Assembly: GCA_018894595.1 (NCBI GenBank) | Contig: JAHIPN010000201.1 | Span: 1-6,874 of the forward strand | Length of the DNA: 6,874 bases | Direction: 5' to 3' | Source of the DNA: a bacterium | GTDB taxonomy: Bacteria; Atribacterota; JS1; SB-45; 34-128 | Shown here: piece by piece, positions 1 through 6,713 of the stretch | Numbering within the stretch: position 1 is the first letter of the stretch | How the letters are laid out: every line of letters begins with the position of its first letter | Notes under the pieces: generated by a model | Database searches by the model: none | Seen by the model: only the letters and a program-made list of their open reading frames with translations | What the model was told of the DNA's origin: nothing | Translations under genes and position numbers: made by a program

Positions 1-1305
1 AGGTAATATTTTTGAGGGAATATTTCTTTTTATTATTCTGTCGATAATGAATCCTGAATACTGTAAGCTTTCCGCAAAAACTTCGGCATTTAAAATATTT
101 ACTCCTTTTAAAGAAGTATCGCCAATTACATAGCAACACCTTCCTCCGTTTTTTAAGATACGGTAACTTTCATCAAACACTTCTTGCATATCAATAAAAA
201 AAGTTCTGATTTCATCCGCCATTTTTTTATTTTTTTCTTGCATTTTAATGATAATTTCTTGTGCTATATTACTTTTTAACTTTTTATTATTACTATATTT
301 ATGTGCAGACCCGATAAATTCTTTCCTGTACTCAGATAGGTTGTCTACAAAATCTAACCAGATAGTAGAAAGTTGGTGCAGATCTGCATACTCATAACTA
401 GTTACATAAGGACTTGAACTAATTATTAAGTCTACTTCATTGCTAGATGTGGGTTGGGTTTTTGCATCTTGTATTTTTATATTTAGATATTGTTTTATAT
501 TTTCTTTAATTTTTTGTGGGGTAACTTGATAAAAATTATTGTTTCCTCTCTGCATTTTTTTTAAATGCCTTTTTAATACAATATAGGGCTTAGCAGGTTT
601 TTTCTTAAAATCTCTGGTGGGCTTGGTGCTTGCCTGAAGCCATATTGAACAATTTTTTAAAATATGGCTAAATGCGATGAGGAAAAAATCTCGGACTGTT
701 TCGTCTTCTTCATCGTAAATTGTTCTTAATATCATTCCTAATTCATTTTTATTTTGTTCGCTAAACCAGTAATTAATCCGTTCTAAATGTTTTTGGGGAA
801 TTAGAGGCTCTATATTTGCGTTAGAAAATAAATTATGAGCTTGGGAATCCGCTAAAAATTCCAACTTTACTAATAGGTTTTTTATTTTTTCATCAAGATA
901 AGAAGGTTCTATGGGTGTAGATTTTACTTTAGTTATTAGAGAAGATATTTTATTTATGTCGGTGCCGCTACTTTTAAAACCTCTGGATATAGCGGTAACA
1001 ATAGTAGTGCCGCATCCCATAAATGGATCATCTATATGGGCATCTTTGCTAGTTATATATTCATCAATTAATTTTTCAACTAATTGGGGAATAAATTTAG
1101 CGGGGTAACGATGGTAACCATGTGTCCACTTTCCAGTATCAGATGGCTTATATTCAGCAAAAGCCCACTCTTCATCGATACTTTTCTCTTTAAATAGATT
1201 TAATATTTCCTCTGGTGTTTTACTTTTTGTTTGTATTGTATTTATGTTGTAATCCTTCGCAACATATTTCGTTGCTGTTTCTTTAATTTTTCCGGATGAA
1301 ACCAT
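1..1305 (-). CDS. DNA amino-methyltransferase (N6-adenine or N4-cytosine type), 3' end cut by window edge
   Basis: The frame runs without a stop from an ATG at 1305-1303 to the left edge: 435 complete codons with the C-terminus missing. It should transfer a methyl group from S-adenosylmethionine to an exocyclic amino group of adenine or cytosine in DNA. Visible signatures are HGYHRYPAKFIP (residues 62-73), a lead-in typical of one methyltransferase family; the SAM-binding motif I DPFMGCGTT (93-101), followed by an acidic D116 after the next strand; a conserved-looking segment CSIWLQASTKPTRDFKKK (219-236); the catalytic motif IV region DLIISSSPY (292-300), followed by VTSYEYADLHQLS; and GGRCCYVIGDT (387-397) near the break. 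Motif I precedes motif IV, with about 190 residues of mostly helical sequence between them. Motif IV reads SSPY where SPPY or DPPY is usual. It is the last gene of the minus-strand set, 114 nt after the zinc-ribbon frame, and has a strong AGGAG 7 nt before the ATG. The modified base and target site cannot be read from the sequence. The methyltransferase assignment is secure; its role as the protective partner of the upstream helicase-nuclease is inferred. Confidence 0.93.
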   Translation of the reverse strand, partial: MVSSGKIKETATKYVAKDYNINTIQTKSKTPEEILNLFKEKSIDEEWAFAEYKPSDTGKWTHGYHRYPAKFIPQLVEKLIDEYITSKDAHIDDPFMGCGTTIVTAISRGFKSSGTDINKISSLITKVKSTPIEPSYLDEKIKNLLVKLEFLADSQAHNLFSNANIEPLIPQKHLERINYWFSEQNKNELGMILRTIYDEEDETVRDFFLIAFSHILKNCSIWLQASTKPTRDFKKKPAKPYIVLKRHLKKMQRGNNNFYQVTPQKIKENIKQYLNIKIQDAKTQPTSSNEVDLIISSSPYVTSYEYADLHQLSTIWLDFVDNLSEYRKEFIGSAHKYSNNKKLKSNIAQEIIIKMQEKNKKMADEIRTFFIDMQEVFDESYRILKNGGRCCYVIGDTSLKGVNILNAEVFAESLQYSGFIIDRIIKRNIPSKILP

Positions 1306-1312
1306 TCAAGCT

Positions 1313-1317
1313 CTCCT
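1313..1317 (-). promoter_or_regulatory. Ribosome binding site of the methyltransferase gene
   Basis: The minus strand reads TTAGGAGAGCTTGAATG. AGGAG sits 7 nt before the ATG at 1305, which fixes that codon as the start. An upstream ATG at 1322 is in another frame and ends after 26 codons. Confidence 0.85.
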
Positions 1318-1330
1318 AACATTTTTTTTA

Positions 1331-1348
1331 ATTAATATTTATATTAAT
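1331..1348. repeat. Short AT-only palindrome upstream of the methyltransferase
   Basis: The plus strand reads ATTAATAT-TT-ATATTAAT, two perfect 8-nt inverted arms around a 2-nt centre. It lies 13 nt upstream of the Shine-Dalgarno core. It could be an operator for the WYL-like or another regulator controlling methyltransferase expression, or part of a promoter. Because it consists only of A and T in an AT-rich spacer, chance is a real alternative. Confidence 0.3.
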
Positions 1349-1419
1349 CTTTATTTTTATCAGTTTATAATTTTAATTTTTTAAAGAAATCTCCCTAAAA
1401 AAATAAATTAATGCCCGCG

Positions 1420-2034
1420 CTATATTTTCCTAATTTTATTTACAAGAAACTTAATGTGATACCCTTTTTCTGTTTTTACATTAATATAATTTTTATCTAG
1501 ATAATAATCATATATTTTTCTTGGCTTTACATCATTGCGATAATAAAATGTAATTGGTGTATGAAATGTTTCTTGCAATTTTAAATACTCCCATATTTCT
1601 CTAAGAGAAGTTTCCCTATAAAAACCATCACTTTCATTTTTTGTTCCTTTTTGGTTATTATCCAATGGTATTTCAAAAGTCCAATTTTTGCCGCAATTTT
1701 TGCAATAGCACCTTTGTTTTCCGTTTCTTATTCCTTTTTTTTCAACTCGAGGAGAATAACAATAAGGACACCACGATACGCTAATATTATTGTGTGATTT
1801 CCCATGTCTGTTTTGCTTTGGAGTGTAATTATTGTAATAATTTAATTTTTTTCTAAAGATATGCAGCGACCTATGACGCTCTTCTTCCCAACAATCCAAA
1901 CATAAATCAATTGATTTAAAAGGGAAATATTCTGTTAGGAGTATTTTTTTACATTTAGTGCATATTCTGTGGGTTCTTTTTTTTAATTTTTCTATTCCAT
2001 TGTTTAATTCTTCAATTTCTTTTGAACTTTGGAC
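1420..2034 (-). CDS. Double zinc-ribbon protein with WYL-like C-terminus; start unresolved, possibly a -1 frameshift extension of the helicase
   Basis: The coding frame ends at a TAG (1422-1420). The conventional reading starts at a TTG at 1899 (159 residues), but that start lacks a Shine-Dalgarno sequence and cuts a zinc module in half. Upstream in the same frame is CTKC (1962-1951), which pairs with CLDC (1902-1891) as C-x2-C-x16-C-x2-C. The frame stays open back to a TAA at 2097-2095 without any ATG, GTG or TTG; only rare starts such as ATT at 2016 or ATA at 1995 are available. Numbering from the TTG, a second zinc ribbon CPYC...CKNC (C44, C47, C66, C69) has the GxxNGKQRCYCKNCGK pattern of transposase-type zinc ribbons. 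Residues 115-159 (PITFYYRN...PRKI...YHIKFLVNKIRKI) resemble a compact WYL domain. No catalytic residues are visible. The frame overlaps the end of the helicase gene and is in its -1 frame, so the listed 5' boundary is the codon following a possible frameshift. Likely a nucleic-acid-binding or sensing subunit or domain (inference). The zinc ribbons are well supported; the WYL resemblance is tentative. Confidence 0.7.
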   Translation of the reverse strand, partial: VQSSKEIEELNNGIEKLKKRTHRICTKCKKILLTEYFPFKSIDLCLDCWEEERHRSLHIFRKKLNYYNNYTPKQNRHGKSHNNISVSWCPYCYSPRVEKKGIRNGKQRCYCKNCGKNWTFEIPLDNNQKGTKNESDGFYRETSLREIWEYLKLQETFHTPITFYYRNDVKPRKIYDYYLDKNYINVKTEKGYHIKFLVNKIRKI

Positions 2035-5000
2035 TTTTTTTTTACAATATTTTCCAGTCTTTCGTTTAGAATTTCCACTGGGTTTTTCCCAATATTAAAT
2101 TTATTTATTCTTATAAATTTATATCCATAACCTTCCAATATTTTTTGCCGATAGATATCGTCATCTTTCAAATAATATTTATAATTTGACTCATTAACCT
2201 CCTCCGAATCAGTAAAGTGTTCTTTAAACCCATCATATTCAATTACAACTTTTTGGTCATTATAGATAAGAAGAAAATCTATTTTGTAAAGTGGATGATT
2301 ATAATCTTTATTAATTTGTTTTAAATATTCTCCAACTTGAAATTGTGGAATGAATTCTATTTTTTCTTTATTGTTTTTATAGAATAAGGTCTGGTAAAAA
2401 TAATTTTGAATTTCCTTTTCCATGGGGGATTTTTTGTCGGTTCCACCAATACGCAATTTTTTACCATTCTCTAATTCATTTTTATAGTGTATCAACGCCT
2501 TTTCAATTTCATATTGATATTCCTCAATGGGCTTACTTAAAACAAAATGAATAGTTTCTTTTGCACGACTAAAACCAACATTCATTCTTTGTGCTTTTAT
2601 AGATTCTCTTTCAACGCTATCTTCTAGATTTTTTGGAAAAATCCAATTTAATCGATCTTTCTCTCTTGTTGCTACCATCGAATAAAAAATATAATCCCTT
2701 TCTTCGCCCTGGCAAGTATCGAAAGTCATTATCTTTAATTTACACTTTTCAAAAAGCCAATCCCTTATATACAAATCATTGATCTTATCAAAAAGCAAGG
2801 TTACCTGCTCTCTATGCGGACTAATAATTCCAATACTTTGTTCTATATTATTCGCTTCAAATTCTTTAAGTTTACCAATAATAAATTCTGCTTCTAATTC
2901 ATTGGTATTCTTTGTTTCATCAAATTTGCCATCATGGGCAATAATATCAATTTTTATTACATCTTCAATTGATTTTCCTCTAATTTTCATACATTGTAAT
3001 GAATTTTTATAAAAATATTTATCTGAGTATGAAATGATTTCCGGATAACAACGAAAATGTTTTTTTAGTTGGCATTCATAATTTCTAATAAATCTTAAAA
3101 ATTTTAGAATTGATTTTTTTATATTAAAATTTTCTTCAACTTTTGGCATCCAACCATATTCATCTTCCCCGTTAAGCCTTTCCTTGCGAAAAGTATTTTG
3201 GACTTTCTTTCTTAATTCGTTATTTGTTACAGTGCTCGCATTGTTTGCTTTTACATTTGAGAATTGTTTATCATCGCCAAGAACAATGAGTTGTTTTCCC
3301 CGGATAATAGCCGGCAAAGCCTGGGCAATACTTACTTGAGAAGCTTCATCGATAATTACTAAATCAAATAGATCTTTTTCCAATGGAATAAATTCAGCAT
3401 AATCGCGAATTCCTGATAAAATACATGGAAATGCTTTCTTGAGATTTTGGAATAAAAGTCTTGGAAATTTCTTCTTTTTCTTAATAATATCCTTTAAATT
3501 ATTTACTTCACCTGCATAATTATCAGTATATTCAATAATTCTTTTATCTAAAAAATAGGTCATTTTAGCAGTAATGAGATCTTCTATCTCTACAACTGAA
3601 TCAGAAAAAATATCTTTCGGTAGGTCATTAAATTGTTTTTCTAGTTTTTGTTCAATTTTCTTGTAATTAAAATAATTTAGAATAAATTCATCTGGATAAG
3701 TCAATAATGAACATTGAATATCACTTATGTTTGTAAGAGTAACATCTAATCCAATTTCTTTTGCACTTTGCAAATTATTTTTTTGAAAACTCTCGACAGA
3801 TCGAAGATCTTCTTCGATCTCAATTAATTTCTCAAGAAATCCTATGCTGGATTCTAAAAACTTAATATCTTTTTCGGTGTTTTCGTATAATAAGTGTTGC
3901 GAAGAAACATCTAACATTAAATTACAAGTATCTAACTTTGAATGCAAATATTGAATATTCTTTTCAAAATAAATAAGATTAATTAAAGTTATATATTTTT
4001 TTATTTCACTTATTTTTATATCTCTAAATTCTCGGAGTATTCCAATCTCGTTTGAAATTAAATGTAATTTATCTTTATTTTTATTATATATTTCCTTTTT
4101 TTCTTGTTTATTATTTTCAATTAAAAATATTATTGTATTTCTAAAAATTTCTTCTATATTTTCGTTTCCGTAAAGTTTTGAATAAACATGTTCATATAAA
4201 TCGTAAATATCTAAAAGCATTTTTATATATCTTTGAGGCTTTTTTATGTTGAAAAAATGATATGTTTTCTTTAGTTTTCTGGAAAGTTCACTCATTTTCT
4301 CTTTTTTAAATAAATATCCAAGAACTGGTTTATGTAGTTTCCGCAATTCTTTTATAAAATTATCAAACTCTGTAATTGCTTCGAAAATTGAAAATTCTTT
4401 CGGTATAATAAAATTTTCAAGATGATCTAATTTATCTAAATGCGTTTCGAAATACTGATTTGATAATTTTGCCATTTCTTCTGTCTGTTTGAGTATAGAT
4501 TCTTCTTTTTGGATTTCTGATAAAGACGATTCGGCATTAATATTTTTAAAATATGAATACTCTGATTTAGAAAAATCTTCATTTAAAAGATCAAATAAAT
4601 TACTTATATTTTTTAAATTCTGAAATATATTATTTCTTTTTTCAAAGGAAATATTTTCAAGTTCTTTTATTACTTTCTGGAAACTTTCTAAATCAGGAAA
4701 GGATGCTTTTATTTTTTCCAAATTTGTAAAGGATGTGCGTAATTCATCAAAATTATCAAGATTTTCTCTTGTAATGGATGATGTTTTAAAAGGACATCCT
4801 TTGACATTTTGTAATTTTTGGATTGTGCTTTTTATTCTAAAAAAATCTTTTTCAGAGAATGATAAATTCTCTTCATTGATCCAATGAATGCATGAAAAGA
4901 TATCTATATTTTTAAAATAATATTCAATATCCTGAAAACTGATTCCTTCGAAATGATCAATATTTTCTTTTATGTTTCGCTTCAATTTAAATAAAGCACT

Positions 5001-6713
5001 ATTTATCGCATCATCTTGTTCGTTTTTTTTGTGCTCATAGGAATAATAAAATTCTCTTATCATTTGAATTGCCTGTCCTTGAACTATTTTATAAAATTTA
5101 TTTCCGGTTTTTCCAAGCCTTAATATCGGGCTTTGATAATCGTCTTTTTTTCTAATTTTGTTGAGGGTGGTAGAAATTTTATCTTCAACAACGTCTAAAG
5201 CCTCTTTTTTATCAGATAAAACGAGGACGGACTTTCCACTCAAAATTGCTTTGCATATGATAGCGGTAATTGTATGACTCTTACCTGTTCCCGGAGGACC
5301 TTCTAAAATGGTATATTTGCAACTTGGTTTTTCAAGTGCCATTAAAATTTGTTTTTGTTCGGTATTGAGCGGAATTGGGCTTTCGAATACAAGCCTTTGT
5401 GGAATATTTTCTTCTTGCCATTCCTTGTCAATCTCTTCCATATAAGGTTTTGGATTTTCTTCAATAAATCCATTAACCAACTTAGAAAAATTGTCAATAA
5501 TTACTCCATCATCGTTTAATATTTCTTCATAATCATTTATTAAAGCTTCATCTGATTTATCAAATAAATATATGTAACACTTGTTAGAAAGAGAACATAT
5601 AAGATTTTCACTTTTTTGTAATTCTGCATTACTTAAATCAATGTGTTTATTAAATTCAAAAAAATTTTCAATTTTTTTTATTACGTTATCCAGAACTGAT
5701 AAAAAATTATTTTCTTCACTAATATAGAGAATTCTATCGAATTCACCTGCTAAAGTTGATTTTTTTTGAACTTGCAAATTGTATTCTTGTACTACGTAAT
5801 TAATTGCCTTCGTGTTAATAAAAAGTCTTTTTTCAAATTGAAAAGTAAATTTATTTTCATCCCTTTTTATGGTGATGGGAATGTAAAAAAGGGGGAACTT
5901 GATTTTTCCCAAAGCTATTTCATAAAAATATACATAAATTTCTGTTTTATCAATTATTCTAATATTTCTATAAAGCTGATAGGTGTCATAGAAAGCATCC
6001 CCAATAACAATATTTTTTATAAAATTAATGAGATTATTTTTAATCTCGGGTAATTTTATAATTTCACGTAAAGAATCTTTTATGTTAAAATCTTCTGCTT
6101 TCTGAAATGCACCTTGTAATACCTCTCTGTATTTTTCTTCAAAAAGAGAAAATAAAGAATCAACCATATCGGTTTCAAGTTGATATTTACTATTTTCATC
6201 TGCTATATCTAAATTTTCAAGTGGTTTATCAAGTTCGTCTAAAAAAGGAAGGATTATATTTTTAGTAAAAATATATTTTGTTTGCTCTTGTGTTTCTTCT
6301 AAAAACTTGTCATATTCTTTAGTGTAATAAGTTATATTTTCTTCAATAATTTTTTGTGTTTCATCAATTACCATTTCAATATTTTCGTCAGAAATGTCTC
6401 CAATTTTATTAATAATCAAAAAAGAAAATGAATCTGGAATATTGCAAGTATATTCCCCTTTTTTTATCTTTAATTCTTCCTTTTCAAAACCATTATTCAA
6501 AATTGTTAAAAGATTATTTTTAAGTTTTGGATATTTTTTTAAGTCAAAACCTACTTTTAAACCTTTCTGTGTATTTTGAATAGTATTCCTTTTGGGAATT
6601 CTTCCCTTTTTAAAGTCGGTATCTAAAAAATTCATAAAATATTTTGCTACTTCTTTTACAAACTTAAGAGGTGAATCGTCTTCAATATTTGTTTTATCTA
6701 TTTTTTCTTCCAT
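2004..6713 (-). CDS. SF1 (Upf1/DNA2-like) helicase with C-terminal Vsr/DUF559-type PD-(D/E)xK nuclease domain
   Basis: A 1569-residue, presumably cytoplasmic ATP-dependent DNA or RNA translocase joined to a nuclease. Helicase motifs in order: Q motif PLNTEQKQ (448-455), Walker A GPPGTGKS (472-479), Ia region VLVLSDKKEA (496-505), Walker B VIIDEASQ (1119-1126), motif III LGDDKQF (1145-1151), motif IV-like HFRCYPE (1219-1225), motif V TFDTCQGEERD (1330-1340) and motif VI RMNVGFSRAKE (1376-1386). DEASQ and NVGFSRAK are typical of the Upf1/DNA2 branch. About 610 residues, rich in K, E, L, I and N and probably coiled coil, separate motifs Ia and II. The C-terminus carries E1432/E1434, D1479 (KIDFLL), E1492-x-D1494 (VVIEYDG), H1499, R1522 and GYGYKFIRIN (1528-1537), the pattern of Vsr-like DUF559 nucleases. 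The N-terminal 440 residues, opening with YFMNFLDTDFKKGRIPKR (25-42), show no enzyme motif I can name. All motifs look intact. The ATG at 6713 has AGGAA 7 nt upstream. First gene of the set; the zinc-ribbon frame overlaps its 3' end. Helicase identity is certain and the nuclease domain very likely; the defence role is inferred. Confidence 0.96.
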   Translation of the reverse strand: MEEKIDKTNIEDDSPLKFVKEVAKYFMNFLDTDFKKGRIPKRNTIQNTQKGLKVGFDLKKYPKLKNNLLTILNNGFEKEELKIKKGEYTCNIPDSFSFLIINKIGDISDENIEMVIDETQKIIEENITYYTKEYDKFLEETQEQTKYIFTKNIILPFLDELDKPLENLDIADENSKYQLETDMVDSLFSLFEEKYREVLQGAFQKAEDFNIKDSLREIIKLPEIKNNLINFIKNIVIGDAFYDTYQLYRNIRIIDKTEIYVYFYEIALGKIKFPLFYIPITIKRDENKFTFQFEKRLFINTKAINYVVQEYNLQVQKKSTLAGEFDRILYISEENNFLSVLDNVIKKIENFFEFNKHIDLSNAELQKSENLICSLSNKCYIYLFDKSDEALINDYEEILNDDGVIIDNFSKLVNGFIEENPKPYMEEIDKEWQEENIPQRLVFESPIPLNTEQKQILMALEKPSCKYTILEGPPGTGKSHTITAIICKAILSGKSVLVLSDKKEALDVVEDKISTTLNKIRKKDDYQSPILRLGKTGNKFYKIVQGQAIQMIREFYYSYEHKKNEQDDAINSALFKLKRNIKENIDHFEGISFQDIEYYFKNIDIFSCIHWINEENLSFSEKDFFRIKSTIQKLQNVKGCPFKTSSITRENLDNFDELRTSFTNLEKIKASFPDLESFQKVIKELENISFEKRNNIFQNLKNISNLFDLLNEDFSKSEYSYFKNINAESSLSEIQKEESILKQTEEMAKLSNQYFETHLDKLDHLENFIIPKEFSIFEAITEFDNFIKELRKLHKPVLGYLFKKEKMSELSRKLKKTYHFFNIKKPQRYIKMLLDIYDLYEHVYSKLYGNENIEEIFRNTIIFLIENNKQEKKEIYNKNKDKLHLISNEIGILREFRDIKISEIKKYITLINLIYFEKNIQYLHSKLDTCNLMLDVSSQHLLYENTEKDIKFLESSIGFLEKLIEIEEDLRSVESFQKNNLQSAKEIGLDVTLTNISDIQCSLLTYPDEFILNYFNYKKIEQKLEKQFNDLPKDIFSDSVVEIEDLITAKMTYFLDKRIIEYTDNYAGEVNNLKDIIKKKKKFPRLLFQNLKKAFPCILSGIRDYAEFIPLEKDLFDLVIIDEASQVSIAQALPAIIRGKQLIVLGDDKQFSNVKANNASTVTNNELRKKVQNTFRKERLNGEDEYGWMPKVEENFNIKKSILKFLRFIRNYECQLKKHFRCYPEIISYSDKYFYKNSLQCMKIRGKSIEDVIKIDIIAHDGKFDETKNTNELEAEFIIGKLKEFEANNIEQSIGIISPHREQVTLLFDKINDLYIRDWLFEKCKLKIMTFDTCQGEERDYIFYSMVATREKDRLNWIFPKNLEDSVERESIKAQRMNVGFSRAKETIHFVLSKPIEEYQYEIEKALIHYKNELENGKKLRIGGTDKKSPMEKEIQNYFYQTLFYKNNKEKIEFIPQFQVGEYLKQINKDYNHPLYKIDFLLIYNDQKVVIEYDGFKEHFTDSEEVNESNYKYYLKDDDIYRQKILEGYGYKFIRINKFNIGKNPVEILNERLENIVKKKSKVQKKLKN
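2034..2043 (-). promoter_or_regulatory. Candidate -1 frameshift or transcript-slippage site (A9 then G) at the end of the helicase gene
   Basis: The minus strand reads GT followed by nine A and then G. In the helicase frame the codons are GTA AAA AAA AAG, which contains the heptamer A_AAA_AAG (2040-2034) in the phase used by the bacterial dnaX frameshift site. A -1 slip continues as GTC CAA AGT in the zinc-ribbon frame and gives a 1764-residue fusion, with helicase residues 1-1560 followed by 204 residues. A run of nine A is also a typical substrate for RNA polymerase slippage. It is the longest single-base run I found in the window. Stimulatory elements are weak: only a 5-bp TTCAA/TTGAA stem follows, and there is no strong internal Shine-Dalgarno sequence upstream. 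Confidence 0.45.

Follow-up and report, generated by a model that had tools for sequence, protein, structure and literature searches.

Genes and reading frames of the window

The window, i.e., the whole stretch of 6,874 nucleotides analyzed here, carries three co-directional coding frames, all on the minus strand (6713-2004, 1899-1420, and 1305 to below position 1), as a sequence-only reading had described. The longest encodes an SF1 helicase-nuclease of 1569 aa (2004..6713, minus strand), in which the N-terminal helicase part with the Walker A motif (AAA_11, residues 450-614; 4872..5366, minus), the C-terminal helicase part (AAA_12, residues 1210-1390; 2544..3086, minus; E 2.9e-20), and a Vsr-like nuclease domain (MTES_1575/DUF559-like, residues 1467-1551; 2061..2315, minus; E 6e-4, below the curated Pfam cut-off) were identified. 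The earlier description as an SF1 helicase with a Vsr-like nuclease was therefore upheld, the nuclease match being weak and its key residues invariant. In an alignment of 31 sequences (the window and 30 relatives), the motif residues of AAA_11, the helicase residues K478, D1122, E1123, and R1383, and the nuclease residues D1479, E1492, D1494, H1499, and R1522 are all invariant; we take these residues to be catalytic, transferring their roles from the respective superfamilies. DUF4011 was not found in a Pfam scan of the helicase. The structure model of its N-terminal 450 residues was poor (mean pLDDT 59.6) and was set aside. At the other end of the window lies a separate gene for an N6/N4 DNA methyltransferase (1..1305, minus; 435 aa, cut by the window edge), whose match to N6_N4_Mtase agrees with the amino-methyltransferase initially proposed.

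The middle frame would be listed by a gene caller as a TTG-started ORF of 159 aa (1420..1899, minus), which is probably no independent gene. No stop codon interrupts this frame between the TTG at 1899 and a run of nine A's farther upstream, within the helicase gene. This run encodes the helicase's KKK and is part of the candidate slippage site GTA AAA AAA AAG (2034..2045, minus; nine A's at 2043-2035), which contains the in-frame heptamers A_AAA_AAA and A_AAA_AAG. The final helicase codons read ATT GTA AAA AAA AAG TCC AAA GTT CAA AAG AAA TTG AAG AAT TAA, so that the 0-frame stop codon (TAA, 2004..2006, minus), the tenth codon after the AAG that closes the A run, would end a short form. Stepping one base back on the nine A's gives KKK-VQSSKEIEELNNGIEKLKKRTHRICTKCKK..., which continues for 207 codons through to 1423. 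The TTG at 1899 is the only listed start of the middle ORF and falls in the first zinc motif, inside its second CxxC; thus, a start there would destroy this motif, and the first zinc module is complete only when the upstream frame is read. The small zinc/WYL-like protein is therefore most likely a C-terminal extension of the helicase itself, encoded in a shifted frame, rather than the separate zinc/WYL factor that had been postulated.

Read in the -1 frame, the tail (1420..2043, minus; 207 codons plus stop) comprises a first CxxC...CxxC zinc motif (tail residues 28-51; 1891..1962, minus; from an alignment of 18 tails), a second zinc ribbon resembling those of IS1/IS1595 (residues 92-117; 1693..1770, minus), and a putative WYL/Sm-like C-terminal domain of a helix and strands (residues 147-206; 1426..1605, minus; from the model and a profile comparison). 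Within the 18 aligned tails C28, C48, and C51 are invariant and C31 is nearly so. The C-terminal block was modelled at pLDDT 88-95, with a whole-model pTM of only 0.38. The WYL likeness of the window's tail is weak (profile E 2.9e-5 for one comparison, probability 74%), and this tail has no Pfam WYL match; the Pfam WYL family scored above its cut-off in five of the nine relatives scanned (the tails of L002, L003, L006, and L011, and the whole of protein P0020). A fold search with the tail returned nothing at E 0.001 or better and several Hfq/Sm-like barrel matches with a probability of at least 0.9 and E above 0.1, which is why the tail end is named merely "WYL/Sm-like." Thus, of the earlier description of this ORF, the two zinc modules and the WYL-like end stand, the latter weakly in the window, and the ORF boundary does not, since the frame is open into the helicase gene.

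The frame junction among relatives of the helicase

Of 1566 helicase homologues within the E-value limit, the best 120 were classified: 98 stop no more than 50 residues from the RxNxF motif of the nuclease, with KK[KN] there in all 98, while 19 go on in frame (fused) and 3 are fragments; the gene is accordingly split in 98 of the 117 usable listed homologues, at one position only. In the fused homologues KKK is followed by the zinc tail, in the register that slippage would give for the window. Of the listed homologues, 11 reach 65% identity or more with the window's helicase at a coverage of 99% or more; all 11 are split, and none is fused.

At the nucleotide level, relatives were recovered from genome and viral contigs with an alignment as query, where scans with one sequence had given none. 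Loci were drawn from a genome-contig scan (77 loci), a viral scan (3), a plasmid match (1), and sampled genomes. The nuclease region was present in 137 sequences, 91 of them unique, the window included, which a script labelled as 29 "split," 61 "fused," and 1 running off its contig. Eighteen of the 29 "split" loci stop shortly past KKK/KKN and are here called recoded. Another (L034) is fused once code 25 is applied, and five (L065, L069, L071, L075, and L081) stop 84-90 residues past the RxNxF anchor, after an in-frame CxxC stretch, bringing the fused loci, which continue at least 84 residues beyond the nuclease motif, to 67 of 91. The other five (L063, L067, L097, L141, and L145) end short with neither an A run nor a tail, and so the tail can be absent. 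In two of these, the distant outgroup helicases L141 and L145, the stop lies 29-31 codons past the anchor and the +1 frame has no stop over the remaining 495 or so codons of the locus, which is probably an overlapping next gene.

The recoded loci share a uniform geometry. Every one of the 18 (17 besides the window) has nine (15 loci) or ten (L003, L004, and L010) A's at KKK/KKN, with an X_XXY_YYZ heptamer in frame (A_AAA_AAG, A_AAA_AAC, or A_AAA_AAA), and the tail is in the -1 frame in all 18, those with ten A's included, and in the +1 frame in none. The run starts 68 nt past the anchor in 17 loci and 71 nt past it in L013. Beyond the 0-frame stop, the -1 frame is open for 147-319 codons and the +1 frame for at most 16. 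The first CxxC follows the run at 81 nt in 15 of the 18 loci, and 15 of the 18 have no ATG, GTG, or TTG ahead of it; the other three (L001, L006, and L044) have one such start codon. Upstream, the helicase frame extends from the anchor for at least 1298 codons before reaching a stop in 14 of the 18; it begins at the locus edge in L007, L014, and L126, and in L044 it is interrupted mid-gene. The L044 locus contains 59 N's, and this helicase copy is broken or badly assembled; leaving it out gives a recoded count of 17/17. Of the hosts named, most are Patescibacteria/CPR and Gracilibacteria bins, and Omnitrophota, Actinomycetota, and Gammaproteobacteria are each the label of a single bin; such labels may be wrong.

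The A run stands out from its lysine-rich, AT-rich background. The first two lysine codons are AAA AAA in 18 of 18 cases at the site and in 3 of 17 other KK[KN] stretches of the same genes (Fisher p 3e-7, for sequences that are related and not independent). L006, with 49% GC, AAA as 24% of its lysine codons, and A-ending codons as 14% of its valine codons, still has GTA AAA AAA AAG. Where the third codon encodes asparagine (seven recoded loci), it is AAC in 7/7, although AAT is the commoner asparagine codon in six of the seven genes. Upstream of the anchor, 73,896 nt of recoded frames hold no run of nine or more A's, as compared to 5.0 expected from 200 synonymous shuffles, none of which was as low; runs of exactly eight A's occur 17 times there versus 14.8 in the shuffles. 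This suggests that nine A's are avoided elsewhere in these genes and kept at the junction.

The downstream frame bears the marks of coding sequence. Tail dN/dS values in its own frame were 0.27 (L012/L014) and 0.25 (L001/L012), with weaker values of 0.42 (window/L014) and 0.50 (L017/L018, fused); in two further pairs dS was saturated and the ratio not computable. These values point to a frame that is under protein-level selection. The tail changes faster than the helicase by dN in all six pairs (0.25 versus 0.07 in L012/L014), and beyond the first zinc motif the tails vary, with extra ribbons, winged-helix-like matches in L002 and L011, and, in L004 and L019, a zinc ribbon of the topoisomerase type. 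Separately, the relatives of P0002 numbered P0129-P0142 (P0130 not among them) have a zinc half like the window's and a different C-terminal half, and most of them gain a winged-helix-like stretch, which suggests module swapping.

Probable slippage and its alternatives

Taken together, these observations are best explained if one gene gives rise to two forms of one helicase-nuclease by programmed slippage on nine A's, a reading held here with good though not full confidence. Part of the decoding would end ten codons past the slippage site and yield the helicase with its Vsr-like nuclease, while another part would shift one base at the nine A's, adding the C-terminal tail with its zinc motifs and WYL/Sm-like domain. 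The sequences themselves show the conserved site and its frame, the missing start codons, a tail constrained at the protein level when read in that frame, and homologues in which both parts are fused; from these, we infer that slippage takes place in the cell. Whether RNA polymerase adds an A or the ribosome steps back was considered as well. Over the 18 recoded loci, no shared upstream Shine-Dalgarno signal (mean SD percentile 0.58) or downstream stem-loop signal (mean folding z of 0.40, 0.20, and -0.22 for 40, 60, and 90 nt) was found as a ribosomal stimulator; some individual loci fall below these means, with stable downstream stretches in L007 (z -3.3) and L004 (z -2.4) for 90 nt and in L013 (z -2.3) for 60 nt, and an SD percentile of 0.06 in L044. 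With no shared stimulator found and a run longer than a heptamer needs, transcriptional slippage is slightly favored over a ribosomal step. Nine-A runs slip during transcription in bacteria, according to PMC5009743, and section 19 of PMC3711429 gives 63, 40, and 10% frameshifting in E. coli reporters for magnesium chelatase sites with 11, 9, and 7 A's.

An ordinary overlapping gene is the first rival to consider: the zinc/WYL ORF might have its own start, with its translation coupled to the helicase stop. Translational coupling is common for overlapping genes, the protein collection does list such ORFs as separate proteins of 159-255 aa, and three loci have a start ahead of the zinc motif. Yet a standard start before that motif is missing from the other 15 and the window's TTG lies inside it, coupling needs neither nine A's nor a constant -1 register nor the usual 81-nt spacing, and the fused homologues, with KKK followed by the tail, agree with the slipped reading, all of which makes a separate gene improbable. 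Phase variation is judged to be marginally less probable still. Here, the A run would gain or lose bases in the DNA, turning the gene of a cell from fused (ON) to split (OFF) and back, as happens in restriction genes that are contingency loci; an A run of this length is mutable, and four fused loci with long runs (L017, L018, and L034 with A10; L054 with A9) show that both states occur in the family. Random length change would however produce both shifted frames, whereas the loci are -1 in 18 cases, in frame with a long run in 4, and +1 in none; the three A10 loci remain -1, and the 11 close listed homologues are uniformly split.

The sequence-only reading had combined the helicase-nuclease, a zinc/WYL regulator, and the DNA methyltransferase into a three-part defense module. 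The three genes adjoin and are co-directional in the window, and other N6/N4 methyltransferases make up 7 of the 71 neighbor proteins examined around recoded loci. Against this, a tblastn search with the methyltransferase (P0003) at E 1e-2 matched 0 of 81 other loci and only the window itself, and a relative is encoded in just 2 of the 17 genomes with a recoded helicase, both times on another contig. The family is very common elsewhere: 4356 relatives were counted among 7999 scored candidates, several with sources named as unrelated phyla, and its abundance in metagenomes is also evident from 120 listed relatives that are 68-93% identical, the closest of them mostly 467 aa long as compared to the 435 aa of the edge-cut window copy. 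Homologues of the methyltransferase and of the helicase are thus regularly found apart, the very outcome that had been named as evidence against a module, and the supposed middle factor is in all likelihood the tail of the helicase. The module is therefore very unlikely, its methylation-gated mechanism found no support, and the methyltransferase is probably a stand-alone or restriction-type gene that lies next door by chance. A restriction-modification pair was likewise rejected, a methyltransferase of this family being next to the nuclease in 0/81 loci and not adjacent in the two genomes of 17 that have one. Least probable of all is an assembly error in which the loss of a homopolymer base splits an intact fused gene. 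Homopolymers are error-prone, the DNA comes mostly from metagenome bins, and L044 demonstrates that frame breaks occur in such bins; the split nevertheless recurs in 17 other public loci and in the large majority of usable listed homologues, always at one position, is common to separate lineages, and is accompanied by no A run of nine or more elsewhere in these frames.

Evolution of the recoded state, parallels, and meaning for the family

A quick tree built from the C-terminal helicase part of 91 sequences requires five changes of the recoded label, at least three of them forced by supported branches. The recoded groups are the main clade with the window, a second clade formed by L006, L010, L044, L061, and L126, the single locus L004, and the pair L019/L088. 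A single clade of the recoded rows together with L017, L018, and L034 was rejected (AU p 0.018) in a test on 51 of the 91 rows, in which these three fused Gracilibacteria rows joined the tested group after the tree had been seen. The changes may represent either repeated gains or repeated losses. Four fused genes keep a long A run (A10 in L017, L018, and L034; A9 in L054), and their alternative frames add only 3-9 residues before a stop; since those frames close quickly, slippage there would give the short form. In L054, from a Rickettsiales bin, the fused gene carries exactly the window's GTA AAA AAA AAG, and a -1 slip there would reach a stop one codon further on, as in E. coli dnaX. The inverted (fused, A9-A10) and recoded loci would thus resemble the two opposite dnaX arrangements mentioned in PMC5009743.

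The class of recoding is already known, from dnaX and magnesium chelatase; what is new is the gene that carries it, its recurrence at one codon, and the modular tail. The two-ORF dnaX genes (poly-A, -1) and the dnaX genes of Thermus and E. coli share with the helicase an A run of about 9-10 or A_AAA_AAG (PMC3711429, PMC5009743), and two-ORF dnaX genes mostly have ten A's (PMC3711429, section 19). As in dnaX, the long and short products predicted here would share their N-terminal part, and shifted and in-frame tails both occur among relatives. dnaX differs in encoding a clamp loader rather than an SF1 helicase with a nuclease, the two products of the latter being predicted from sequence, and, unlike in dnaX, several changes of state are found inside one rare and scattered family. 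The magnesium chelatase genes likewise have a -1 shift at 7-11 A's, are annotated as two genes, and have fused homologues, and run length governs their efficiency in E. coli reporters, in the account of section 19 of PMC3711429. Unlike in those genes, the downstream part here is a variable zinc/WYL module. Magnesium chelatase is a metabolic enzyme. No account of recoding in this helicase family was found in searches of the open-licence literature, and the family may yet be listed in a supplementary table of a frameshift survey.

The helicase core is similar to those of the anti-phage SF1 helicases PDC-S37, MkoA/MkoC, Hhe, and ProA (PADLOC/NCBIfam), with 163.9 bits to PDC-S37 and 162.6 bits to ProA over best stretches in the helicase part; the ProA and Hhe scores (99 bits for the Hhe model) are far below the NCBIfam cut-offs of 1500 and 2000 bits, respectively. 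Identity with the PADLOC candidate PDC-S37 was rejected, as the match spans only profile positions 298-1193 of 1550, and identity with Hhe or DUF4011-helicase-Vsr proteins was rejected for the missing DUF4011 and for 99 bits against a cut-off of 2000. No markers of DISARM, BREX, or type I restriction were among the families listed for the window's three proteins (for the methyltransferase, the best 25 of 36). With PADLOC matches confined to the helicase part, the earlier statement that no named system fits still holds. "AAA domain-containing" helicases with fused tails, such as that of a Priestia megaterium plasmid (WP_323874070.1, L081), belong to the same wider family and have an in-frame zinc motif after the nuclease; L081 differs in that its longest A run between the nuclease motif and the stop is 8, with no sign of recoding. 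In plasmid and phage searches, no match spanned 80% of the helicase; this plasmid came closest.

The helicase gene is rare and scattered: at E 1e-100 it was found in 7/379, 2/18, 8/288, 1/10, 4/380, 7/334, 4/233, and 3/246 genomes of samples that overlap and include the query genomes. A Pfam scan of 71 of the 105 neighbor proteins around recoded loci identified three serine recombinases, the seven N6/N4 methyltransferases, four DUF2779 proteins, and a type I methylase in L007. The serine recombinase genes (Resolvase, Recombinase) adjoin the recoded helicase in L003 (4523-5836), L013 (4596-5819), and L044 (4190-5524), and in L002 its neighbor is a fusion of ParB with a methyltransferase; the recoded helicase may be cargo of integrating elements. 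DUF2779 genes are located a few kilobases from the recoded helicase in L002 (13018-14439), L006 (3543-5036), L011 (10115-11530), and L136 (1942-3435), and DUF2779 is possibly a partner or a common resident of these genomes.

Defense against foreign DNA is a plausible role, to which architecture, rarity, and neighbors lend about an even chance. The tail could bind DNA or act as a sensor, directing the helicase-nuclease against foreign DNA, and the short form could set the dose or the composition of an oligomer, as gamma and tau do in dnaX. A broader reading, offered tentatively and with rather more doubt than trust, is that of an immune helicase-nuclease family in small, poorly studied bacteria, in which slippage on nine A's would hold a fixed ratio of tail-less to tailed enzyme, the tail would be a swappable sensor or DNA-binding module (zinc ribbons, winged helix, WYL), and selection would maintain the two-form output itself, given a switch that would have arisen or been inverted at one codon on several occasions. 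If programmed slippage is indeed at work, a large helicase-nuclease, possibly a defense enzyme, would set its own composition through copying errors, like dnaX. In the protein collection the tail appears as a small protein apart, mostly unnamed, so its zinc and WYL parts escape a search made with the helicase alone. The arrangement is found again in distant bacteria, and the presence of fused, split, and inverted versions within one family means that the function of slippage can be compared among them.
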